Shown one piece after another: positions 10,114 through 30,435 of a stretch of DNA of 30,501 nucleotides. The stretch's first letter is position 1; the number at the start of each line of letters is the position of its first letter. The position numbers were made by a program, and so were the translations under genes. This DNA comes from a virus: IMG/VR virus record IMGVR_UViG_3300050118_000016, positions 1 through 30,501 of that record. The stretch is one strand, 5' to 3'. Under the pieces are notes generated by a model that saw only the letters and a list, made by a program, of their open reading frames with translations, had not been told where the DNA came from and did no database searches.

Positions 10114-10542
10114 TTACTTGAAAAGTGATTGTATTTTCGGGAACCCAGTGCGGGTCATGAAGTCGATGCTTCCGTCGATGGCTGCCCACTCTCCGCCAGT
10201 GATGAATGCCTGCTTCAGTGGGTTGTCCCGTTTATGCAGAGATGCCGCCGTATAGCCTTCGATCATTCCGGAGGCTCCGCCGATCATCGTGCTCACCAGG
10301 GCGCTGCGTAGAGGACTTCCACCCCTGATTCCAGGAGCAAATACACCAAGCGCTGTCTCTGTGACGATGTCGGTAGCGGCCCATTCTCCCGCGGTGCGTA
10401 GAGCACTCAGGAAAGGATGCTCATCACCCCGGTCAACCGCTTTGTGGTACCCGATCAAGGCACCAAGGACAGCGCCTTCTGTTGCGGCGATACCGACATC
10501 CTTGTACAGGGTGCCGACAGGTCGTCCGAAAAAGGTTGCCAT
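10114..10542 (-). CDS. Small glycine/alanine-rich hydrophobic protein, 142 residues
   Basis: No recognised family. Residues ~17-35 (GIAATEGAVLGALIGY) and ~80-96 (RSALVSTMIGGASGMIEGY) have GxxxG-like spacing compatible with membrane helices. A repeated phrase, T-A-G-E-W-A-A-T-D and T-G-G-E-W-A-A-I-D (around 50 and 117), suggests an internal duplication. The N-terminus MATFFGRPVGTLY is like the 'F-S-x-P-x-G' N-terminus of the two glycine-zipper paralogs at 27.3-28.1 kb, so it may be a remote relative. It starts 3 bases after the previous stop and is probably coupled. It lies among lysis-type genes. Confidence 0.5.
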   Translation of the reverse strand: MATFFGRPVGTLYKDVGIAATEGAVLGALIGYHKAVDRGDEHPFLSALRTAGEWAATDIVTETALGVFAPGIRGGSPLRSALVSTMIGGASGMIEGYTAASLHKRDNPLKQAFITGGEWAAIDGSIDFMTRTGFPKIQSLFK

Positions 10543-12351: not shown

Positions 12352-12825
12352 CTATACGGGCTTCTGGAAGAGGGTGACTTCGTGCTCACGCCTGTCGGTA
12401 AGGTCCTTGCTGACCTTGCCGCCGGCTTCGTTGTACTTGGCGAACTCTGCCGGCAGGGCGGACTTCTTGCCGGCGTTCAGGAGTTGTAGGAGGGTAGAAC
12501 GTTGGAACGTCCCCGATCCCTCGTTGAAGGTGAAGTCCACCAGGGCATCGAATTCGTTCTGGTTCAGAACCACCGTCACGTGGAAGTTGACGGTGTGCTC
12601 GGCGTACCCCAGGTCATGCTGGAGGAGAGCCAGCTCTTGGGCAGCCGTACAGCCATGCACGTATGGTGCTTCGGTCGCGGCGCCGGAGATCGGACCCATG
12701 TGGACCAGGTGCCCGGTTCCCACCGTGCAGTTATGCGCCACATCGTTGTAGAGGTGATAGATCGTTCCCTCTTCGGAACGGACGAGGGCGAGACCGTTAG
12801 GTCCGGTCTTGAGATTATTGACCAT
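12352..12825 (-). CDS. Endolysin, T4-type lysozyme (glycoside hydrolase family 24), 157 residues
   Basis: The catalytic triad of T4-type lysozymes is visible: E19, D28 and T34 in the context SEEGTIYHLYND and CTVGTGH. The spacing E-9-D-6-T and the following G-x-G-H match T4 lysozyme (E11, D20, T26). The C-terminal half has the conserved FDALVDFTFNEGSGTF, corresponding to the helix with 'F-x-x-N-x-G' in this family, and closes with RREHEVTLF. No signal peptide, so it needs a holin to reach the peptidoglycan, where it cleaves between N-acetylmuramic acid and N-acetylglucosamine. AAGGAG precedes the ATG at 12825 by six bases. It lies between a structural gene and membrane proteins likely to help lysis. 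Confidence 0.92.
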   Translation of the reverse strand: MVNNLKTGPNGLALVRSEEGTIYHLYNDVAHNCTVGTGHLVHMGPISGAATEAPYVHGCTAAQELALLQHDLGYAEHTVNFHVTVVLNQNEFDALVDFTFNEGSGTFQRSTLLQLLNAGKKSALPAEFAKYNEAGGKVSKDLTDRREHEVTLFQKPV

Positions 12826-19326: not shown

Positions 19327-21391
19327 TGGTCTCTCCGTCTGCTTTGGGATCCAGAGCTACCGTCTGACCGACTAGGTCGAAGATGGTATCGAGATCTGTA
19401 GTCTGACCGACCTGGTGCTTTAGTTGGTCATGTTGTGCATTCGGAGATTGTTTAGTATAGGAACTCCCGGCCGGTTGAATGGCGTCCTTGAAGAATCGGT
19501 CGATAACTCGTGCAGAAAGTTCCGGCCACCGGGCAAGGTCGTCTGACATTTGAGCTGCTTCCAGGCTGTCGTGGAGGTTGGAGTACAGTCCGGATTCGGT
19601 GCGTGCGCTCTTAGCCTTCTTCGGCGAGTTGTTGGTTCCGTGCTGGTTTGTCGGTGTCGACTGGTTCTGCGATACCTTCTTTTTCGGCGCTGCCGTCTTC
19701 GTGACGGATGCGCGTCGGCCAGACTTGCCCTTCTTCCCGCCGCCCTTCTTCTTAGCTGGTCCCTTCGGAGTCGCCTTCGCTATCTTGATGGCGAGTGCAG
19801 CCTGCGTCTTAGCCAGTCCAACTACCTCACGAGCGTGATGCGTCTCGCCCTGCTGCTCTTCGGAGAGCGGGTTGCGCTTGATGGCGCCACGGAACTCATC
19901 GTGGGTCAGACCATTGTTGTTGTAGAGGTTGGTCGCGTGGTTTTCTTCCTTGACCTTGTTGTCCATGTCGATTTCCTGGAACTCAAGGGTCACGTCGGCA
20001 ATCGACTCCTGGATGCTGATGTCGAAGTTGGCCTCGGCGAAGAGATCCCGCAGGATCTCCATCGACAGTTGGCCGGTGAACACGTCCAGGTCGTACTTGA
20101 TGGAGTCCTTGAGCGCCTGGGACACGTTGTCAGCAGTGCTGCCGTTGGTCGTGTCGCCCTCACCCATGTCCATTGGGCTCACACCCAGGCCGGTGAAGAT
20201 ACGCTTCTTGTAGTGGCCCAACATTGGGATGGGATCGAGTGACTCACCTTCAGAGCCGACGATCTCGACGTCGACACGTTCGTCGGTGACCAGTACGCCC
20301 TCCTTGGGCATGGTCTCGATCAACTTACGAGTGTGATCAATCTCGCTGACACCTCCGGGCATGTATCCTGCCGGAGCTTCCTTCGTTCCGACCTTCACGT
20401 GGAAGAGAGGGAAGAGGAAGTTGATGAACAGGAGCTCGATGTTCTCTTCTAGCCGGCGGATGGCATAGATATCGTCGCGCACGGCTTGCAGCCGCGGCGT
20501 TCCGAAGATGTGGCTGGGCTTACGGTCCCAGGTCAGGTGGATGATGTCCTCGGGCTGGTAATCCTCCCAGGGCTTGATCGACCAGTTGTAGTACCGGCGC
20601 CACTTGATGATCTTGCCCTTCTCGACATACGGGAACAGCGAGTGAGGTGGGATCATCACGTAGGCTGCGATCGGTAGCCGGTTCCCGTTCTTCTCATTCT
20701 TGATGCCGCCGGAGGCGTCCTCCTGGCGGAGCTTCAGCAGGAAGCAGTTCGAGCACAACGACAAGGTCGTGAGAATCTCACGCATGAAGTTGGCCCAGGT
20801 CTTCTTCATCATGTAGGCGATCTGGTTCAGGCGCCGGTTGATGTACTTGACCTTGTTCTGGTTGTTGCCGGTGACGCGATACCCGTTGCGGAACATGAGA
20901 CTCAACCGCCGGCGGATAGCCTGCTGGACGTAGACTTCGACGTCGTAGAGGGTGAATGCCTCGAGCAACTCATACTCAGGGCGGATCGGTCCGAAGTGTG
21001 CGAAGTAGTTTCCGGACCAGTCGAGGTTCCTCTCCACCAGGGCCAGGGCTCCGCTCGGCCCGACCTTCAGTTTGGGCTGCTTCTTACCGTCTGTGACTTT
21101 CTCGGAGGTCTTTGCGTCCTCGGCGATGATCAGGTTGCTTAGTTCGACCCAGGTAGGCACGAGGGTTCCGACACGTGGCGGACCCAGTGTGAAGCTGCGA
21201 CCTTCCACTCCACGGCGCACCGCAAAATCTGACTTTACGTGGACATTGGCTCCGCCAGAGTCATACACAGGACGCGACGCTTTCGGATGGAGGACGTCCA
21301 CCAGTATCCGTTCAGTACGCGTCGTTGGGATGGCCAACTTGGAGCCGGCGGAAGGTGCAACCTCGATCTGTGTGGACTTCTTAGTTGCCAT
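19238..21391 (-). CDS. Portal protein, 717 residues, with basic C-terminal extension
   Basis: I start at the ATG at 21391 (MATKKSTQIEV), with GGAG five bases upstream. An open frame continues further upstream but overlaps the preceding gene. The body has typical portal signals: a long N-terminal region, YNWSIKPWEDYQPEDIIHL with HLTWDRKPSHIFGTPRLQAV (clip/wing region), FLFPLFHVKVG, and GLGVSPMDMGEGDTTNGSTADNV followed by a helix, as in portals of large myoviruses. From about residue 539 the protein is highly basic (GPAKKKGGGKKGKSGRR), then acidic near the end. The extension could contact DNA or scaffold. It is between a 518-residue gene and the protease, the classic order. A promoter-like motif lies inside its 3' part. 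Confidence 0.85.
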   Translation of the reverse strand: MATKKSTQIEVAPSAGSKLAIPTTRTERILVDVLHPKASRPVYDSGGANVHVKSDFAVRRGVEGRSFTLGPPRVGTLVPTWVELSNLIIAEDAKTSEKVTDGKKQPKLKVGPSGALALVERNLDWSGNYFAHFGPIRPEYELLEAFTLYDVEVYVQQAIRRRLSLMFRNGYRVTGNNQNKVKYINRRLNQIAYMMKKTWANFMREILTTLSLCSNCFLLKLRQEDASGGIKNEKNGNRLPIAAYVMIPPHSLFPYVEKGKIIKWRRYYNWSIKPWEDYQPEDIIHLTWDRKPSHIFGTPRLQAVRDDIYAIRRLEENIELLFINFLFPLFHVKVGTKEAPAGYMPGGVSEIDHTRKLIETMPKEGVLVTDERVDVEIVGSEGESLDPIPMLGHYKKRIFTGLGVSPMDMGEGDTTNGSTADNVSQALKDSIKYDLDVFTGQLSMEILRDLFAEANFDISIQESIADVTLEFQEIDMDNKVKEENHATNLYNNNGLTHDEFRGAIKRNPLSEEQQGETHHAREVVGLAKTQAALAIKIAKATPKGPAKKKGGGKKGKSGRRASVTKTAAPKKKVSQNQSTPTNQHGTNNSPKKAKSARTESGLYSNLHDSLEAAQMSDDLARWPELSARVIDRFFKDAIQPAGSSYTKQSPNAQHDQLKHQVGQTTDLDTIFDLVGQTVALDPKADGETNERADAVEGDQERNSCPEGSVGSGDSRSE
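19452..19461 (-). promoter_or_regulatory. CCTATACTAA motif inside the portal 3' end, candidate promoter
   Basis: The minus strand core CCTATACTAA is identical to the three intergenic copies, and the flanking 18-base string 19446-19463 is identical to 7031-7048. It is embedded in portal codons (read as SYTKQ), 126 bases upstream of the 43-residue gene and 260 bases upstream of the protease. It would start a head-assembly transcription unit ending at the terminator at 14221-14250. Confidence 0.55.
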
Positions 21392-23370: not shown

Positions 23371-25503
23371 CTAGAGGCCGCGGCGACCGCCGCCACGTGG
23401 ACTGACGAAGGACATCGGGCCATTTCTTCCAAGGTCGTACGACTGGCTACGCCCGGTCTTTTCCGTCCGGAACGTGGCAGTTCTTGATCCCCGGCTGAAT
23501 CCGCCACCGCCAGACCTCAGTCCAGAAGCAGCACCAGCATGTGTCTTGGCTGGGGCGACGAGGGCGCTATCGCGTCCTGCGAATACCGTGTTCCACTCGT
23601 CTTCCTTGTCAGGTTCGGATACACGGGAAGGTGTCGCGGTCTGCATCATGCGAGCGCGCGCGGCTGCGATCTTTCCTGCCAGCCCTGTTCCAAACGATGA
23701 CACAGTAGCGAGTTGTGCCAAACGGTGATGCGCGGCGGCGTCAAAGAACAGCCCCCATGCCAACTCAATGCCCAGCATGGAAAGGATCCAGGCGTCGAGG
23801 TCGTGGTCACCTTCGGTCTTGGCCTCATAACTCTGGGCCTGCCCGTTGGCGGAGTAGGTCTTGACCCTGAAGTCTCGCATCTGGGCCTCGAGCCGCTCAT
23901 CCTCACTCGAGAACACGACCTTGAGCTGCTCCATGGCGATCTGGCAGCCTTCCACCATGAATGGTTTCGTCTGCCGTTCCAGCTCGCTGTCCGCCAGGTA
24001 GGGGGAGTTCGGGTCGCGCTTGGGAACAAGCGCGTTTGTCTTGAGGTTCTCCTTGGAGCCGACGAACTTCGCGCGCAGGAGCTTGATGTCGTCCTCGCGG
24101 AACTCCAAAGGAGGGTTGACTCCCATCTTGCGCAGCAGTTCGTCCTGAGCGAAGCCGAACCCCTTGTCGCAGTAGATGTAGTCGCAGTGGAAGACGCGAT
24201 TCAGCAGCTTGATGTGAGTCAGGCTGATGGTGGTAGTCGAGGTTTCGGAGTCGATCGTCTCCTTATAGACACAGCGGCGGACCTTGGTCGTATGGTTGAA
24301 CTCGGTGATCCGGATGCGAGTCCCGGTCCCTTTTCCGTTCCAGTCGCAGCCGAGCACATATCCCATCGCTGGGTTGTAGGCGCAGTCGTTCCAGTTGATG
24401 GTCTTCACTTCCATCTCATCGGGGGTGTAGACCACCTGCGCGTAGTCGTAGTGCTTCTTCGCGTTGTCGACCGTCAGGCCCTTGAAGACGCCCTGTTCCA
24501 GGTCGCCAAAGAGCGCCATGTACTCGTGGTTGTAGCGATCCTCGGTCTTCGCTTCCTTGCGGAGCGTGGCTTCCTCTTCCGGTCCCCAGTTCAACTTCAT
24601 GGTCACCGGGATGTAGAACTCTTTGTATTCAGGCAGCTGCGTACACATCTGCCAGTACATCGAGCGGGCTCCGGTGGGAGTCGACGATCCATGGAACTCG
24701 GAGTACGCGAACCGGCGGAGAAGCGCCATGACCGCGTCGTAGTCGGCCTCAGCAAGGTAATCCTGTTCGTCGAGGCGCACGCGGTGCGGTGACTGACCTC
24801 GAATGGCTACGGCGCCGCGGCCGGCTTTCGATCCGGCGGTGAAGATGCTGATCGTCGCTCCGTTGTAGAGCTTGAACATGAAGTAAGGCGCCTGGATGGA
24901 TCGCTTCAGGGCGCCCTTCAACATCGGGGAGTTTTCGAACTGCTTATTGATCTCTTCGTACCAGAGTTGCGCCTGGGCCTTGGCTGGGCAGAGCACCAGG
25001 ATCTTGTAGTTTTTGTTGTTGTAGGCCTTGTGGAGTTCGGTTCCGATCGCCAGGGTGGTCTTGCCCATACCTCGACCCATGCGGTCGACCTGGTACTGGG
25101 CCGTGCATTTCAGGACTGGTCGTTGGAATGGTCTGGTCTCAGCAGAATAGGGATGGTAGTTTCCATCCTCATCTGAGATGACGATGTAGCTCTCCATCCA
25201 AGTCTCGACGTCGAGGAACTCGGCAGCCTCGAGCATGGACATGCCGGTGCCGTCGGCATACGCGGCGTAGTCGACCTCGTCGTGGATTCCTTGGCAGTTG
25301 GGTTGGAATGCCCGGTCTGGGTACTTCTTCTTGTAGGTCGCCTGGCATGCGACACAATCCGGGTTCTGAAGCCGGCGGTAGAGACCTGGACTGGCATCCT
25401 CCCCAGAAGGCAAGGTGTTGCGCGCGACCATCTTCGCGAAGAAGGGGTCCCGCTTCATGGCGTCGGCAGAGCGTAGCTCCGACAGGGGGACGAAGTTGGA
25501 CAT
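23371..25503 (-). CDS. terL: Terminase large subunit, 710 residues
   Basis: The ATPase has Walker A MGRGMGKTT (142-150) and Walker B VRLDEQD (242-248, D245/E246), with GSSTPTG near 272 as the likely coupling motif. The nuclease half has acidic residues in the expected order: GCDWNGKG (D387), IYCDKGFG (D446) and GDHDLDAWIL (566-570). Ahead of the ATPase is a Cys cluster (C50, C53, C70, then H74) that may bind zinc. The C-terminal ~100 residues are Ala/Ser/Gly/Arg-rich (GGGGFSRGSRT). It packages DNA into the prohead through the portal. No small terminase subunit is recognised nearby. The ATG at 25503 has a pyrimidine-rich upstream sequence without a Shine-Dalgarno signal, which is unusual for such a gene. 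Confidence 0.9.
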   Translation of the reverse strand: MSNFVPLSELRSADAMKRDPFFAKMVARNTLPSGEDASPGLYRRLQNPDCVACQATYKKKYPDRAFQPNCQGIHDEVDYAAYADGTGMSMLEAAEFLDVETWMESYIVISDEDGNYHPYSAETRPFQRPVLKCTAQYQVDRMGRGMGKTTLAIGTELHKAYNNKNYKILVLCPAKAQAQLWYEEINKQFENSPMLKGALKRSIQAPYFMFKLYNGATISIFTAGSKAGRGAVAIRGQSPHRVRLDEQDYLAEADYDAVMALLRRFAYSEFHGSSTPTGARSMYWQMCTQLPEYKEFYIPVTMKLNWGPEEEATLRKEAKTEDRYNHEYMALFGDLEQGVFKGLTVDNAKKHYDYAQVVYTPDEMEVKTINWNDCAYNPAMGYVLGCDWNGKGTGTRIRITEFNHTTKVRRCVYKETIDSETSTTTISLTHIKLLNRVFHCDYIYCDKGFGFAQDELLRKMGVNPPLEFREDDIKLLRAKFVGSKENLKTNALVPKRDPNSPYLADSELERQTKPFMVEGCQIAMEQLKVVFSSEDERLEAQMRDFRVKTYSANGQAQSYEAKTEGDHDLDAWILSMLGIELAWGLFFDAAAHHRLAQLATVSSFGTGLAGKIAAARARMMQTATPSRVSEPDKEDEWNTVFAGRDSALVAPAKTHAGAASGLRSGGGGFSRGSRTATFRTEKTGRSQSYDLGRNGPMSFVSPRGGGRRGL

Positions 25504-25552: not shown

Positions 25553-26128
25553 TTAGTGGCCCTGGATAGTGACGGAGACGGTGGCGCCGCCGGTGATGTT
25601 CAAGACCTCGATCTGTATCGGTGCACCCATCAGAGCAATTCCGTCGACAGTCCCGCCAACGAATAGGCCGGTGCTGAAACGGTTGATCCCGGTGTACGAC
25701 TTGATCAGGACGTTTCCATTCACAGGGTCGACCTGGTAGATGTTCAGGGCGCAGGTATCGGTGAAGTCGCTGATGGCTACAGCGATGTCGATCCGGTTGA
25801 CACCCATATTGATCGTGGCCGAGGTGGTGTTTGCGGTGACGTTTGCGATCGGCTGAGACTTCGGGCTGGCATAAGTGACATCGAGGTCACTGACGTTGAA
25901 GCCAGGATTGAAACCGAAGGCCGGCGCGTCGCTGTCGAAGCGAAAGGGCTTCACGTTCGGTACGACCGGGAGCTGCGAAGGGAAGTCGAGATCCATCCAC
26001 GGGGATGTTGGGTTCTGTGGCGTCTCGACCTGGTAGGGCTCTTCAACCAGGGGAGTCTGGAGAACAAAGGACGGCGCCAGCAGGCGCGGAGCGGGATTGA
26101 TCGGGGTGGGTGGTGTGAGACCGGGCAT
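25553..26128 (-). CDS. Proline-rich, beta-rich protein, 191 residues, ahead of the terminase gene
   Basis: The first ~75 residues are Pro-rich and probably extended (PGLTPPTPINPAPRLLAPS). The rest is beta-strand-like: NVTANTTSATINMGVNRIDIAVAI, then CALNIYQVDPVNGNVLIKSYTG and a closing VSVTIQGH. It may be a small virion surface or adaptor protein. AGGAG lies seven bases before the ATG at 26128. No family is recognised. It is between the glycine-zipper genes and the terminase. Confidence 0.5.
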   Translation of the reverse strand: MPGLTPPTPINPAPRLLAPSFVLQTPLVEEPYQVETPQNPTSPWMDLDFPSQLPVVPNVKPFRFDSDAPAFGFNPGFNVSDLDVTYASPKSQPIANVTANTTSATINMGVNRIDIAVAISDFTDTCALNIYQVDPVNGNVLIKSYTGINRFSTGLFVGGTVDGIALMGAPIQIEVLNITGGATVSVTIQGH

Positions 26129-26149: not shown

Positions 26150-26647
26150 TTATCGGTGATAAATCTCGGCCTCGCTGCCCAACCAACGGCGGGAAGCGAC
26201 CATAGTTCCGTTCATCTGTTGAATGGCGGCGTCGCGCGCGGCGCGCGCGGAGAGGGAATCCTCAAAGCGGCCTCCCATTTCCAGACGTCCAACACGACGT
26301 CCTACATCTGAGAGAGCTCTGAATCCTCTGCCGGCAAAGCTGTCGAACTGTGCGTTCGGATAGAATGCTGCCGCGGTGGCGACTACGCCGGCGGCGATCG
26401 GGCCCAGTCCTGGAATCATCATGAGTCCGGAGGTAAGTGCGGCCGCGGATACTGTCCTGGTGACCAGGGCTACTCCATGACCGGCAAGGGTGGGTAGCTT
26501 ATCGCCGCGCTTCTGGTTCTGAACGTCGTTGGCGGCGAAGGCCAGTCCAGCAAGTGAGCCGGCTGCGCCGATCGTAAGAGGAGCCCAGAACCCGAGGCGG
26601 CGCGCGCCGCGCGCGAAGACGCCGATATCCTCTGCTGGTGTGCTCAT
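26150..26647 (-). CDS. Small hydrophobic Gly/Ala-rich protein, 165 residues
   Basis: Two hydrophobic segments are visible: APLTIGAAGSLAGLAFAAN (about 22-40) and SAAALTSGLMMIPGLGPIAAGVVATAAAF (about 67-95), both with small-residue spacing (GxxxG-type) suggesting packed membrane helices. The C-terminal ~60 residues are basic and polar (RALSDVGRRVGRLEMGG, SARAARDAAIQQM). AGGA is about eight bases before the ATG at 26647. It belongs to the cluster of four such proteins here. Membrane action, for instance in DNA entry or host exclusion, or an internal virion role are possible. Confidence 0.5.
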   Translation of the reverse strand: MSTPAEDIGVFARGARRLGFWAPLTIGAAGSLAGLAFAANDVQNQKRGDKLPTLAGHGVALVTRTVSAAALTSGLMMIPGLGPIAAGVVATAAAFYPNAQFDSFAGRGFRALSDVGRRVGRLEMGGRFEDSLSARAARDAAIQQMNGTMVASRRWLGSEAEIYHR

Positions 26648-26661
26648 GGCTCATATCCTGT

Positions 26662-27321
26662 CTATCCGCGCCGTTTACGATGCAATCCCAGGACGACATC
26701 GCCGGTGGCATTCATCGAGGCCGATCTGCGGCGGACCGGCGCATCAGAGTATGTGGTCTCACCTGAGTCGCTGCTCGAGCTGTATGAAGAGGTGGCAGGA
26801 CTTCCTGCGAGAGCATGTGCACCCATCGCGACCGCCAGGGTTCCAAGAATGGCGACTCCGGCTACTCCCGCCTTCATTCCAGTTGCTCCAAACTTAGTGG
26901 CACTGATGGCCTTGTGTGCCTGCACGGCAGCCATGGTTACCCGGGCTGCTCCGCCGACTCCGGCTCCAATCGCGGCACCCTTAGCTGCCCCGGAGACTGA
27001 ATCATCCGAGGCGTAGGCTCCAATGCCGGCTCCGATGGCTGCGCCGCCGCCGACAAACATGCCAGTCTTGGTCGTCAGACCTTTCCCGAGTGTCTTCGTG
27101 CCATTGACGACAGCAAACTTGGCGGTAGGTTTGAACACGCCGGCCTTGTACATTCCAGCACCGGTGAGGGCGGCGGCCGTAGCAACACCAGCTCCAAACT
27201 GGCCAAGGGCCGATGTCTCACCTGGTTCTGCATCCTCGGGAGAGTGGCTGACACCAAAGTACGCGCCGCCGGCGGCGGCGGCGGCAAGCGCGCCGAAAGC
27301 TACTTTGTTTTGGAGGAGCAA
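26662..27321 (-). CDS. Glycine-zipper-type membrane protein, 219 residues, TTG start
   Basis: Several glycine-zipper stretches are clear: FGALAAAAAGGAYFGV (9-24), QFGAGVATAAALTGAGMYKAGVF, FVGGGAAIGAGIGAYAS and GAAKGAAIGAGVGGAARVTMAAV. Runs with Gly every fourth residue are the signature of glycine-zipper domains, which form tightly packed membrane helices or pores. The C-terminus is Ser-rich then basic (VLGLHRKRRG). I take a TTG at 27321 as the start, with AGGA six bases upstream. It is the largest of the four glycine-rich genes and probably acts with the others. Confidence 0.55.
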   Translation of the reverse strand: MLLQNKVAFGALAAAAAGGAYFGVSHSPEDAEPGETSALGQFGAGVATAAALTGAGMYKAGVFKPTAKFAVVNGTKTLGKGLTTKTGMFVGGGAAIGAGIGAYASDDSVSGAAKGAAIGAGVGGAARVTMAAVQAHKAISATKFGATGMKAGVAGVAILGTLAVAMGAHALAGSPATSSYSSSSDSGETTYSDAPVRRRSASMNATGDVVLGLHRKRRG

Positions 27322-27329
27322 CGTTGATC

Positions 27330-27731
27330 CTATCGGTGGAATCTGGACATCATGTTGCGCACCGCGTTGATGCCTCGTGTTACTCCTGAACCTGCGCGCG
27401 ATATGTCAGAGCTGAGGCCAGCAGAGATGTTTGGATTCATGGTGATACGTTTGGCTGCATCGCTGAGGACACTGCCTGCGGCTGCCACCCTTCGGCCCGC
27501 TTGACTCTCACCTCGGGCCCAGTTCGCTCCGGCCCGCAGTCCGCCCCACGCGCGCTTGGCGTTGCCGGCAAAGGCATGCGCGCCGCCGCCGACGACGGCA
27601 CCAGTAACGCCGCCGGCTACGGCGCCGGCAGTTCGATGGTCACGTCCGGCCAGGGCAGCGCCAGCTCCAGCGCCGACGCCAGCATAGGCACCGACTGCTG
27701 CACGTCCGAGAGGTTGACTGAAAATGCTCAT
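27330..27731 (-). CDS. Glycine-zipper small protein, paralog A, 133 residues
   Basis: The N-terminus reads MSIFSQPLGRAAVGAYAG, followed by AALAGRDHRTAGAVAGGVTGAVVGGGAH with Gly spaced as in a glycine zipper, then a basic helical region (AGNAKRAWGGLRAGANW) and a C-terminus ending in RNMMSRFHR. The protein upstream has the same layout and the same DHRTxGAV core, so the two arose by tandem duplication. AAGGAG precedes the ATG at 27731 by eight bases. Confidence 0.55.
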   Translation of the reverse strand: MSIFSQPLGRAAVGAYAGVGAGAGAALAGRDHRTAGAVAGGVTGAVVGGGAHAFAGNAKRAWGGLRAGANWARGESQAGRRVAAAGSVLSDAAKRITMNPNISAGLSSDISRAGSGVTRGINAVRNMMSRFHR

Positions 27732-27743
27732 ACTTAGGACTCC

Positions 27744-28139
27744 TTATCCTCTGCGGCGCATCATCCCGAAGATTGCGCCAAATCCATTCCGGATTTCGTC
27801 TGTAACGTTCGGGTTCGCAACCAGGTTGGATCCAGCACCCTTCAAAGCCTGAATGGTTCTTTCAACTTGTCCGCCAGATCCGCGGAACGTTTTTCCCGCT
27901 CTGGCCCACGGTATGGCCCGCTTCGCGCCGGCCACTGTATCCGCCAGGTTATGACCATAAGCGTGATATGCAGAGAGACCCATGCCAGCTACGTTGCCAA
28001 CGGTCGATCCGACTACAGCTCCAGAGGTGCGATGGTCTTTTCCGGCCATAGCCGCGCCGACGCCCGCACCAACAGCGGTGCCACCCCAGTTATAGAGCCC
28101 CATCCGTCCTTGTCCCATGGGTCTGCTGAACACGCTCAT
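27744..28139 (-). CDS. Glycine-zipper small protein, paralog B, 131 residues
   Basis: The N-terminus MSVFSRPMGQGRMGLYNWGG, a zipper (TAVGAGVGAAMAGKDHRTSGAV and GSTVGNVAGMG) and a basic helical C-terminus ending in GMMRRRG mirror the next gene downstream (paralog A). The core AGxDHRTxGAVxG is the most conserved part. AGGAG lies ten bases before the ATG at 28139, and a candidate promoter is 25 bases upstream, so this is probably the first gene of its transcription unit. A role in the membrane or in the virion interior is inference. Confidence 0.55.
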   Translation of the reverse strand: MSVFSRPMGQGRMGLYNWGGTAVGAGVGAAMAGKDHRTSGAVVGSTVGNVAGMGLSAYHAYGHNLADTVAGAKRAIPWARAGKTFRGSGGQVERTIQALKGAGSNLVANPNVTDEIRNGFGAIFGMMRRRG

Positions 28140-28163
28140 GCGCGAGACACTCCTAGAGGTTTC

Positions 28164-28173
28164 TTAGTATAGG
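28164..28173 (-). promoter_or_regulatory. CCTATACTAA motif, candidate promoter of the glycine-zipper/terminase unit
   Basis: The minus-strand core CCTATACTAA lies in the 43-base gap ahead of the ATG at 28139. With the flanking bases it shares 14 bases exactly with the site at 7037 (28164-28177). The short leader still contains AGGAG. It would start a unit running through the glycine-zipper genes, terminase and portal. Confidence 0.6.
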
Positions 28174-28182
28174 AAGATGGGG

Positions 28183-28385: not shown

Positions 28386-28805
28386 CTAGAGGATGAACTC
28401 GGAGCAGATGTACTTGATCACCCGACCGACCTTCTCGTTGAATCCGAGGATGGCGGCGTTGCCGCCCTTGTGGTAGCCGATGATCTTCTTCAGCTCCCGC
28501 TCGCGGCCTTCTTCCACGAGCCGGTTCCACAGAATTCCGTAGTACCCGCGACCGCGGTATGACTTGAGCACGTATCCCATGTTGACGGTGAACGCGCCCT
28601 CGCCGGACTTGAAGAAGGAGAGAACGGCTACGACGGCCTTGCGTCGGTTGAGGACGTAGAAGGCTTCCTCGTCTCCGGACGCCGGACAGTCGCAGGCTTC
28701 GATATTCCCGGCCTGGCGCAAGCTCACATACGCATCAATCACGAAGGGAAGTACCGGCGTTCCCTGAATCTTCGGGACGTACGAGATCTTGACTGAGGGC
28801 GCCAT
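28386..28805 (-). CDS. GNAT-type N-acetyltransferase, 139 residues
   Basis: I start at the ATG at 28805 (MAPSVKISYVP), with AGGAG four bases upstream; longer frames begin inside the previous gene. The core has the GNAT acetyl-CoA loop: strand VNMGYVLKSYRGRGYYGILWNRLVEEG, where R-G-R-G fits the 'R/Q-x-x-G-x-G/A' pattern apart from Tyr in place of the last Gly/Ala. The region after it (KIIGYHKGGNAAILGFNEKVG) matches the typical 'N-x-x-A-x-x-x-Y/F-x-K-x-G' end. It would transfer an acetyl group from acetyl-CoA to an unknown target. It lies between a phosphoesterase and structural genes. Confidence 0.72.
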   Translation of the reverse strand: MAPSVKISYVPKIQGTPVLPFVIDAYVSLRQAGNIEACDCPASGDEEAFYVLNRRKAVVAVLSFFKSGEGAFTVNMGYVLKSYRGRGYYGILWNRLVEEGRERELKKIIGYHKGGNAAILGFNEKVGRVIKYICSEFIL

Positions 28806-28812
28806 GGTGCTC

Positions 28813-30435
28813 CTATGCGGCGGACTGGTTGTATCGGTTGGCTGGGATGCAGTCTGGCGCCGGCAGGCCGTCAACTGCGGGACAGAGGATGGTGTTCACG
28901 ACTCCATAGTCACGGTCGATGATGTAGCCGGAGAGCCCGGCCATCCCGAGAAAGCCGCTCTCCACATGCCAGCGATCTGGGCCGCTAAGAGCCGGCATCT
29001 GGTAGCGGGTCCCGCCGACCAGGTTCTCGGCTGCCAGGGAATGGAGGTGTCCTGTGAACCAGTACTTGTACATCGCTCCGCCGAAGTCGGCGCGCGCTTC
29101 GACCCCCATCGTGGCCATCAGGTTGATTGGCTTGATCAGGTGGCCGTGGGTCATGCCGAGCAGCGAGTTCCCGTACCGCACATATGACCGCATGCGGGCT
29201 GTCATCTGAACGGTCACATCGGCCGCGCTCGCGAACTGGATGTTCAGCATCTTCATCACCATGTAGGCGCTGAAGGTGTTATGGTTGCCGGCGGAGAGAA
29301 CGATCCGCACCGGGGAGATCGAGCGCAGGCGTTGGATCTCGCGCACCTGGATCTCGTAGAACTCGTCAATCATCTGCCGGCCAGTGGCATTGACGTCCAT
29401 CGGCGTTCCAGCAGAAGTTTCTGGCCGCGACCCGTCGACATGAAGATCGTCGTTGCCGACGACGTAGATGATCTCCTCCGGCCGGCCGAAGATCTGAATC
29501 TCAGACATCATGGCCTCGGTTGTGCGAGCCAGGCGGTTGTCGGCAACGGCACGGTCGAATACCTCTCCGGTTTCACCGATCCATCCCTGTTTTCCATAGT
29601 GCAGCTCGCCCGACGATGTCAGGGCGGCGAAGCGCCGCGTCGACCGCGGGATGAGGATCATCGGCGGCGGTTGAAGTAGTGGAGCGATCTCCGCGAGGCG
29701 TTCGATGATCGGCTCGACGATGAAATGCTCGAGGTTGCGGAACCGCTCAGCATCGCGCTGAGTGTCCTTCCAGTTGCGCTTGTTCATCTGCTGATCGAGT
29801 TGCGATCGGCGCATCTGGACAGCGTCTTCAACCAGCGTTGAAGTCTCTTTCGAGAGGATCTCTTCATCCGTGAACGCATCGGAATCGTGCGTCCATCCCA
29901 GGATGGTCTTGATCTCGTAGAAGTGATCCCTACGCATCTCGAAGGACCGTGCGATCTCATTGATCGTCGAAGCGTCTCCCATGCGGGAGTAAGCGCGCTT
30001 CATGGCGCGAATAGTGGATCCCTGAAGGACCTGTTTCTTGCTCGAGGTCCGCATAAAGAAGGTGTAGGTGTCGAGATCCCCGTTGTAGACATAGCGCTCG
30101 CCTTCATGCCACGTACCTGGTTGCTCCGGGCCTGGGTCTTCGAATGGTTCCTCGGCGGCCGCGGCGGGCGCGTCATCGATGGCAAACTCTGCGGCAACAT
30201 CGTCGTCGCTGAGGTCGTGATCGTCGGGAAGGGAATTCAGCACCTCGGCAACTCGAGGAGCTTCACTCTGAGCCACATTGGCTGCGCCCTGTCCCTGCAC
30301 GCCGCGGAGATGTCGGCGAACTGTTCCATGATAGACGCCGTATCTTGCGGCTACTTCCCGGATGCCGGCTGCCCGATCTTCAGCAGCTTCTACCTCTGCC
30401 AGCAGCAATTCGCGCGACGGAAGCTTTCCAGACAA
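28813..30435 (-). CDS. Metallophosphoesterase with N-terminal helix-turn-helix, 540 residues
   Basis: The C-terminal half (~265-510) has calcineurin-like phosphoesterase motifs in order: SGELHYGK (274-281, usual D-x-H read here as E-L-H), VVGNDDLHVDG (325-335), SAGNHN (381-386), THGH (429-432) and TGHLH (461-465). The N-terminus (about 22-45) reads like a helix-turn-helix (IREVAARYGVYHGTVRRHLRG); a second one may lie near 156-181. Residues 50-115 are acidic linker. Such HTH-phosphoesterase proteins occur in large phages; possible roles are nucleic acid processing or signal turnover. The start is a TTG at 30435 with a weak upstream signal; a CTG at 30462 in frame has GGAAAGG at seven bases and would add nine residues. 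Confidence 0.75.
   Translation of the reverse strand: MSGKLPSRELLLAEVEAAEDRAAGIREVAARYGVYHGTVRRHLRGVQGQGAANVAQSEAPRVAEVLNSLPDDHDLSDDDVAAEFAIDDAPAAAAEEPFEDPGPEQPGTWHEGERYVYNGDLDTYTFFMRTSSKKQVLQGSTIRAMKRAYSRMGDASTINEIARSFEMRRDHFYEIKTILGWTHDSDAFTDEEILSKETSTLVEDAVQMRRSQLDQQMNKRNWKDTQRDAERFRNLEHFIVEPIIERLAEIAPLLQPPPMILIPRSTRRFAALTSSGELHYGKQGWIGETGEVFDRAVADNRLARTTEAMMSEIQIFGRPEEIIYVVGNDDLHVDGSRPETSAGTPMDVNATGRQMIDEFYEIQVREIQRLRSISPVRIVLSAGNHNTFSAYMVMKMLNIQFASAADVTVQMTARMRSYVRYGNSLLGMTHGHLIKPINLMATMGVEARADFGGAMYKYWFTGHLHSLAAENLVGGTRYQMPALSGPDRWHVESGFLGMAGLSGYIIDRDYGVVNTILCPAVDGLPAPDCIPANRYNQSAA

Follow-up and report, generated by a model that had tools for sequence, protein, structure and literature searches.

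The best reading of the four adjacent small genes at positions 26150–28139 of the window, i.e., the whole analyzed stretch of 30,501 nucleotides, is that they form the leading part of a late head-gene block conserved among 0305phi8-36-like large myoviruses, a placement made via homologs in Acinetobacter phage ME3. As far as the sequences indicate, this is a hitherto undescribed late gene block of a known phage lineage, with two diagnostic C-terminal tail peptides, carried by the proteins M and G. With a probability of about 0.45, we infer that its products are made late, associate with the head or portal and probably leave the particle together with the DNA to enter the cytoplasmic membrane. 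The terL-adjacent genes of this ancient large-phage lineage have until now been annotated as hypothetical. The two short peptides identify M and G across lineages that otherwise share little, including two cultured phages that have both; the protein pair is present throughout the group, and its role could be assigned from one cultured member.

Genomic Context and Lineage Placement

The main genes of the window, a 30.5 kb virus record, lie on the minus strand. No match was obtained when the window was compared with phages by megablast; its terminase, portal, prohead-protease-like and major capsid genes were found by blastp and tblastn to have homologs in Moorella phage MTATph1, Bacillus phage KLEB27-3 and ME3, with the order of terL, portal, prohead protease and major capsid protein conserved with respect to these three phages. 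The ME3 annotation gives 0305phi8-36 proteins as relatives, and the window was therefore assigned to this ancient large-myovirus lineage. A conserved virion gene order has been reported for the 0305phi8-36 lineage, and the accessible portion of that report contained no description of the tail-peptide block (PMC2147016).

In the window, the four genes are followed by a 191 aa gene (25553–26128) and then by the terminase large subunit gene terL (23371–25503; PHROGs phrog_2, E = 1.5e-18; 31% identity to the MTATph1 terminase), all on the minus strand, and the block continues into the portal, protease and capsid genes. The 191 aa gene is a feature of window-type lineages, with homologs at the G–terL interval in L003, L010-type, L012-type and L016. 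Immediately before the block lies a gene for a GNAT-family acetyltransferase (28386–28874, minus strand; Pfam PF00583, 24.5 bits for a cut-off of 20.7), a position whose content differs by lineage; in this farther upstream part, L003 and L012 have a protein without a Pfam match in which an HExxH motif was recognized by eye, and L016 has a gene with weak similarity to kinases (E = 0.014, under the cut-off). In several lineages the block is flanked by an exonuclease-like protein (28813–30435 in the window, minus strand; PHROGs phrog_704 DNA repair exonuclease, E = 4.6e-43), with homologs near the block in L013, L014, L016, L017, L020, L023, L024, L025 and L041. Opposite-strand ORFs between the exonuclease gene and the block were observed in the L010-type lineage (L035 4654–7673, L017 719–7314); they vary among relatives (Sel1-like repeats and others, by eye) and may mark a cargo spot.

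Gene Order before the Terminase

A tblastn search with the terminase identified one contig, L003, which has the gene order of the window and an M-like gene having the C-terminal peptide MNAxGDxVLGLH in common with the window M. A DNA pattern for the M tail found 18 stretches in IMG/VR, and a frame check showed that in the intact members this peptide ends a Gly/Ala-rich protein; the exceptions were the frame-disturbed copies of L024 and L025, and L009, whose contig stops there. In window-type lineages the gene after M has the G tail. A Bacillus-type G-tail pattern found 16 further stretches; in each of them the G-tail gene adjoins a terminase homolog or, if the locus stops short of one, lies downstream of the block's CPxxxxCP gene. 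Over 21 terL lineages (clusters at 80% identity, so that lineages are less than 80% alike), the G-tail gene adjoins terL or sits one or two genes upstream of it, a few of the loci having an incomplete upstream region. Similarly, in KLEB27-3 (gp006–gp009) and MTATph1 (CDS0251–0252) an M-tail gene stands directly upstream of a G-tail gene, followed by terL, as in the window; in MTATph1 this adjacency presumes a circular map, the record being cut at terL, and one 107-aa gene intervenes. The block genes of both phages are all annotated as hypothetical. Unlike the window, KLEB27-3 has a single zipper-like gene (gp007), plus an additional gene whose product has a GHHKM tail. The preliminary description had proposed looking for the same order before the terminase in related phages, where it is indeed present. 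A scan of genome contigs gave one true relative, L041 (an Acidobacteriaceae MAG contig, which is no proof of host); two other matches were found to be unrelated.

The Four Genes and the Tandem Pair

All four are real minus-strand ORFs, 8–14 nt apart, as had been described. The first gene, zipA (27744–28139, minus strand), encodes a 131 aa protein with a Gly/Ala-rich hairpin, an AGKDHRTSGAV turn and a C-terminal NPNV motif, and zipB (27330–27731, minus strand) a protein of 133 aa with a C-terminal NPNI motif. The earlier suggestion that these are tandem paralogs was borne out by 41% identity (E = 1.2e-13), an AG(K/R)DHRT(S/A)GAV core in both and a local score of 190, where shuffled sequences averaged 48 (z = 18). 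A zipB ortholog-like gene was found in L016 (4109–4552). They are followed by M (26662–27321, minus strand; 219 aa, TTG start) and G (26150–26647, minus strand; 165 aa). The Gly+Ala contents of zipA, zipB, M and G are 34%, 41%, 40% and 32%, respectively. Shuffle tests of M against the paralogs gave z values of 4.4 (zipA) and 2.3 (zipB), with other pairs near zero, and the match of the M zipper hairpin to zipA/zipB was weak (hhalign probability 40%); M and G share with the pair a hairpin style only, and not paralogy.

A possible fifth relative at 10114–10542 (142 aa) was discarded, with no relation to the G and paralog profiles or, by shuffling, to any of the four. This protein, encoded downstream of a lysozyme-like gene, has an apparent internal duplication around GEWAAxD (by eye). 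Relatives of zipA were detected neither by tblastn against phages nor by zipA patterns in viral contigs, and homology of zipA/zipB to the KLEB27-3-type zipper gene (gp007) was not demonstrated, the two being alike in position and composition only.

The claim that all four proteins have glycine-spaced hydrophobic helices holds in part. Membrane-grade segments are present in M (Kyte-Doolittle 1.5 and 1.9) and G (1.4 and 1.7, with an uncharged hydrophobic stretch of 37 residues; 28–51 in window-type orthologs), and neither zipA nor zipB has a 19-residue segment above 1.3. GxxxG counts are near the composition expectation (p = 0.34, 0.04, 0.27 and 0.75 for the four proteins in order). AlphaFold models of M and G are all-helical, with low confidence (pLDDT 48 and 47). 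Helix-rich, membrane-grade character is found in the window M and G, not in zipA and zipB, and is weak in the KLEB27-3-type proteins. The hydrophobic segments of the Bacillus-type (KLEB27-3-type) M and G orthologs are weaker, and the deeply conserved feature is therefore the C-terminal peptide rather than the zipper.

The C-Terminal Peptides of M and G

M consists of a helical, Gly/Ala-rich part, an acidic/serine linker and the C-terminal peptide MNATGDVVLGLHRKRRG (end, MNAxGDxVFGLHxxRhG), and its tail is matched in the 18 IMG/VR stretches, in MTATph1 CDS0251 and in KLEB27-3 gp008. The G tail is a conserved 40-residue C-terminal peptide, its last part being RRWLGSEAEIYHR (consensus end, RRxLGxEAxxxH), which occurs in window-type, KLEB27-3-type and ME3-like lineages. 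Both tails are kept in IMG/VR contigs, MTATph1 and KLEB27-3; ME3 has the G-type tail only. Homology was supported by hhalign for the G tail across three groups (E = 1.9e-9, 4e-14 and 1.4e-5) and for the M tail across two (E = 3.9e-9), and a profile search with all G sequences gave no usable conserved stretch. All groups keep the G tail and its position ahead of terL, two keep the M tail, and hydrophobicity is less conserved.

KLEB27-3 and MTATph1 each have a single copy of the full M tail and of the full G tail, both within the block, and the tails therefore look gene-specific; on the same grounds, a role as general packaging signals was rejected. As short basic C-terminal peptides past a flexible linker, they look like docking signals. 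Codon differences among close relatives are mostly synonymous for M (65 synonymous vs 29 nonsynonymous, 17 vs 8 and 19 vs 10) and G (21 vs 12 and 14 vs 3); these raw counts are consistent with moderate constraint on genes that are translated. In L024 (6462–7667) and L025 (4827–6032), M and G form one 401-aa frame, suggesting a frameshift. A second protein with a G-type tail (MRQRAVQEMGSSALNARQYLGKEAALFHQ; 258 aa) was observed in L090 (3924–4700; contig of L020), about 68 kb away from the block and with no terminase homolog in the 16 kb examined; its genome-search match includes one TAG.

The Promoter-Like Motif

The sequence CTATACTAA is located 24 nt upstream of the first block gene of the window, and a near-identical motif lies 23–24 nt upstream of the equivalent gene in L003, L008 and L016; it is absent from the L010 lineage. 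Scored as TCCTATACTAAG (28163–28174, minus strand), the motif occurs four times in the window if up to two mismatches are allowed, on the coding strand in every case, against 0.47 expected, and four were reached in 0 of 100 shuffles. The motif was taken from a window copy, so that this count tests the other copies only, whereas its positions in the other lineages do not depend on that choice. A scan for sigma-70-type promoters found none; the motif is of another type. Conservation at the same place in four lineages supports both the candidate late promoter of the preliminary description and its proposal of expression with the structural genes, and we infer that the motif acts as a late promoter. 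The CTATACTAA motif also occurs in the 3' end of the portal gene (window 19451–19462, L003 14058, L030 14910), about 240–310 nt before the protease gene in the three lineages, possibly as a conserved internal promoter.

The Variable Slot before G

In the window type, the slot before G holds the zipper genes and M, and in the KLEB27-3 type the GHHKM-tail gene, the zipper-like gene and M. In the ME3-like contigs L042, L043, L044, L046 and L052 (L049 partial), it holds a single protein of 1,200–1,400 aa with a staphylococcal-nuclease (SNase) domain above the Pfam cut-off, an N-terminal part that is DnaQ-type exonuclease-like in two (PHROGs phrog_192, E = 2e-4 to 6e-4) and has a DxET motif in others (by eye), and, in most, a GHHRM-like C-terminal end. 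In ME3 itself, an exonuclease-like protein of 529 aa takes this place. A relation between the GHHKM tail of KLEB27-3 gp006 and the GHHRM tail of the large nuclease proteins was weak (probability 26%) and was not retained.

Known Families and Comparable Systems

No family was reached at curated cut-offs by the four proteins in Pfam and NCBIfam, and PHROGs gave matches with chance-level E-values only; in these libraries, the earlier statement that no named module has this makeup stands. The proteins zipA and M resemble the glycine-zipper 2TM domains (PF05433, PF13441, PF13488) in their Gly-spaced hairpin and polar turn, but differ in that all matches are under the curated cut-offs (zipA, 22.0 bits for 24.2 with Rick_17kDa_Anti; M, 17 for 28.9). 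The glycine-zipper 2TM families are mostly envelope proteins and lipoproteins. A search of PDB sequences for known ejection proteins gave no significant match, a weak test because such proteins diverge widely.

The ejection proteins of T7-type phages are alpha-helical, the gp14 types having 2–5 predicted TM helices; in T7 gp16, infectivity depends on the last five residues, which are basic (PMC8954989). As in the T7/P22-type internal core, several helix-rich, partly membrane-grade, putative minor proteins are encoded here, and their basic tails suggest a loose parallel to the gp16 C-terminus (PMC8954989). Unlike that system, no sequence relation was detected, and the present phage is long-tailed and contractile, with a putative virion location for these proteins.

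Proposed Function and Alternatives

According to the preferred reading, M, G and the zipper paralogs would be minor components of the head interior or the portal vertex, with M and G docked on a head partner through their conserved peptides; on infection, the helical Gly/Ala-rich bodies would exit together with the DNA and enter the cytoplasmic membrane, aiding DNA passage. The head reading is based on gene order, tail conservation, the promoter-like motif and helix-rich, partly membrane-grade sequence, and membrane-active virion proteins, as first suggested, are possible. Counted against ejection are the low AlphaFold confidence, the weak hydrophobicity of the KLEB27-3-type proteins, the result of the PDB search and the 2,200–2,300 aa proteins of MTATph1 and ME3 with a strong hydrophobic segment, putative tape-measure proteins that could themselves do the membrane step. 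If ejection occurs, long-tailed phages of the 0305phi8-36-like lineage would have head-stored delivery proteins, like podoviruses.

It is conceivable, though rather unlikely, that the proteins are membrane-anchored procapsid assembly factors, with hairpins in the cytoplasmic membrane and tails recruiting portal or scaffold, making the membrane the site where heads start; such factors need not be present in the finished virion. The location of the block directly upstream of terL and the portal genes and the resemblance of the tails to docking peptides that terminate a flexible linker fit this explanation, but the weakly hydrophobic KLEB27-3-type orthologs oppose a membrane anchor in all lineages, and we know of no comparable small multi-gene assembly set in other phages. 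A parallel is offered by SPP1, whose procapsid precursors are formed at the membrane and require the portal protein (PMC13212656). Superinfection exclusion or lysis, to which small, Gly/Ala-rich, hydrophobic proteins might point, along with a chance-level PDB match of the zipper pair to the Gly-zipper exclusion protein TraT (E = 0.08), is very improbable: the block is deeply conserved beside terL across lineages, and a lysozyme-like gene and TM genes lie elsewhere (12352–12825 and neighbors). The exclusion factor of the preliminary description is likewise unlikely, since the block belongs to the conserved head-gene region.

Packaging-associated DNA processing, in which the block and the terminase would clear branched DNA at the portal, with the ME3-like nuclease form as the enzyme part and the small proteins as a tether, draws on the SNase domain and the weaker DnaQ-type match of the ME3-like pre-G gene and on the exonuclease-like gene flanking the block in the window lineage. 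It is improbable, however, as the small M-type and zipper proteins have no nuclease and the exonuclease neighbor is sometimes non-adjacent. Rather doubtful as well is a delivery slot before the M/G pair for alternative enzymes, namely the SNase-containing nuclease of ME3-like lineages, the HExxH-motif protein of L003 and L012, the weakly kinase-like gene of L016 and the GNAT acetyltransferase of the window. The head would store these enzymes, and the tail-peptide proteins would bring them into the cell; if true, this would constitute a virion-borne effector system in contractile-tailed phages. The upstream enzymes could be passengers, block-mediated delivery being a guess.

Possible Inserted Elements

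The terminase homolog of L047 (3126–8136) is in three pieces, perhaps through introns or inteins. An intein with a LAGLIDADG-like domain was observed inside the nuclease protein of L042 (3958–8193), and the CPxxxxCP gene of L043 (12226–14289) has an intein-like insertion (by eye).
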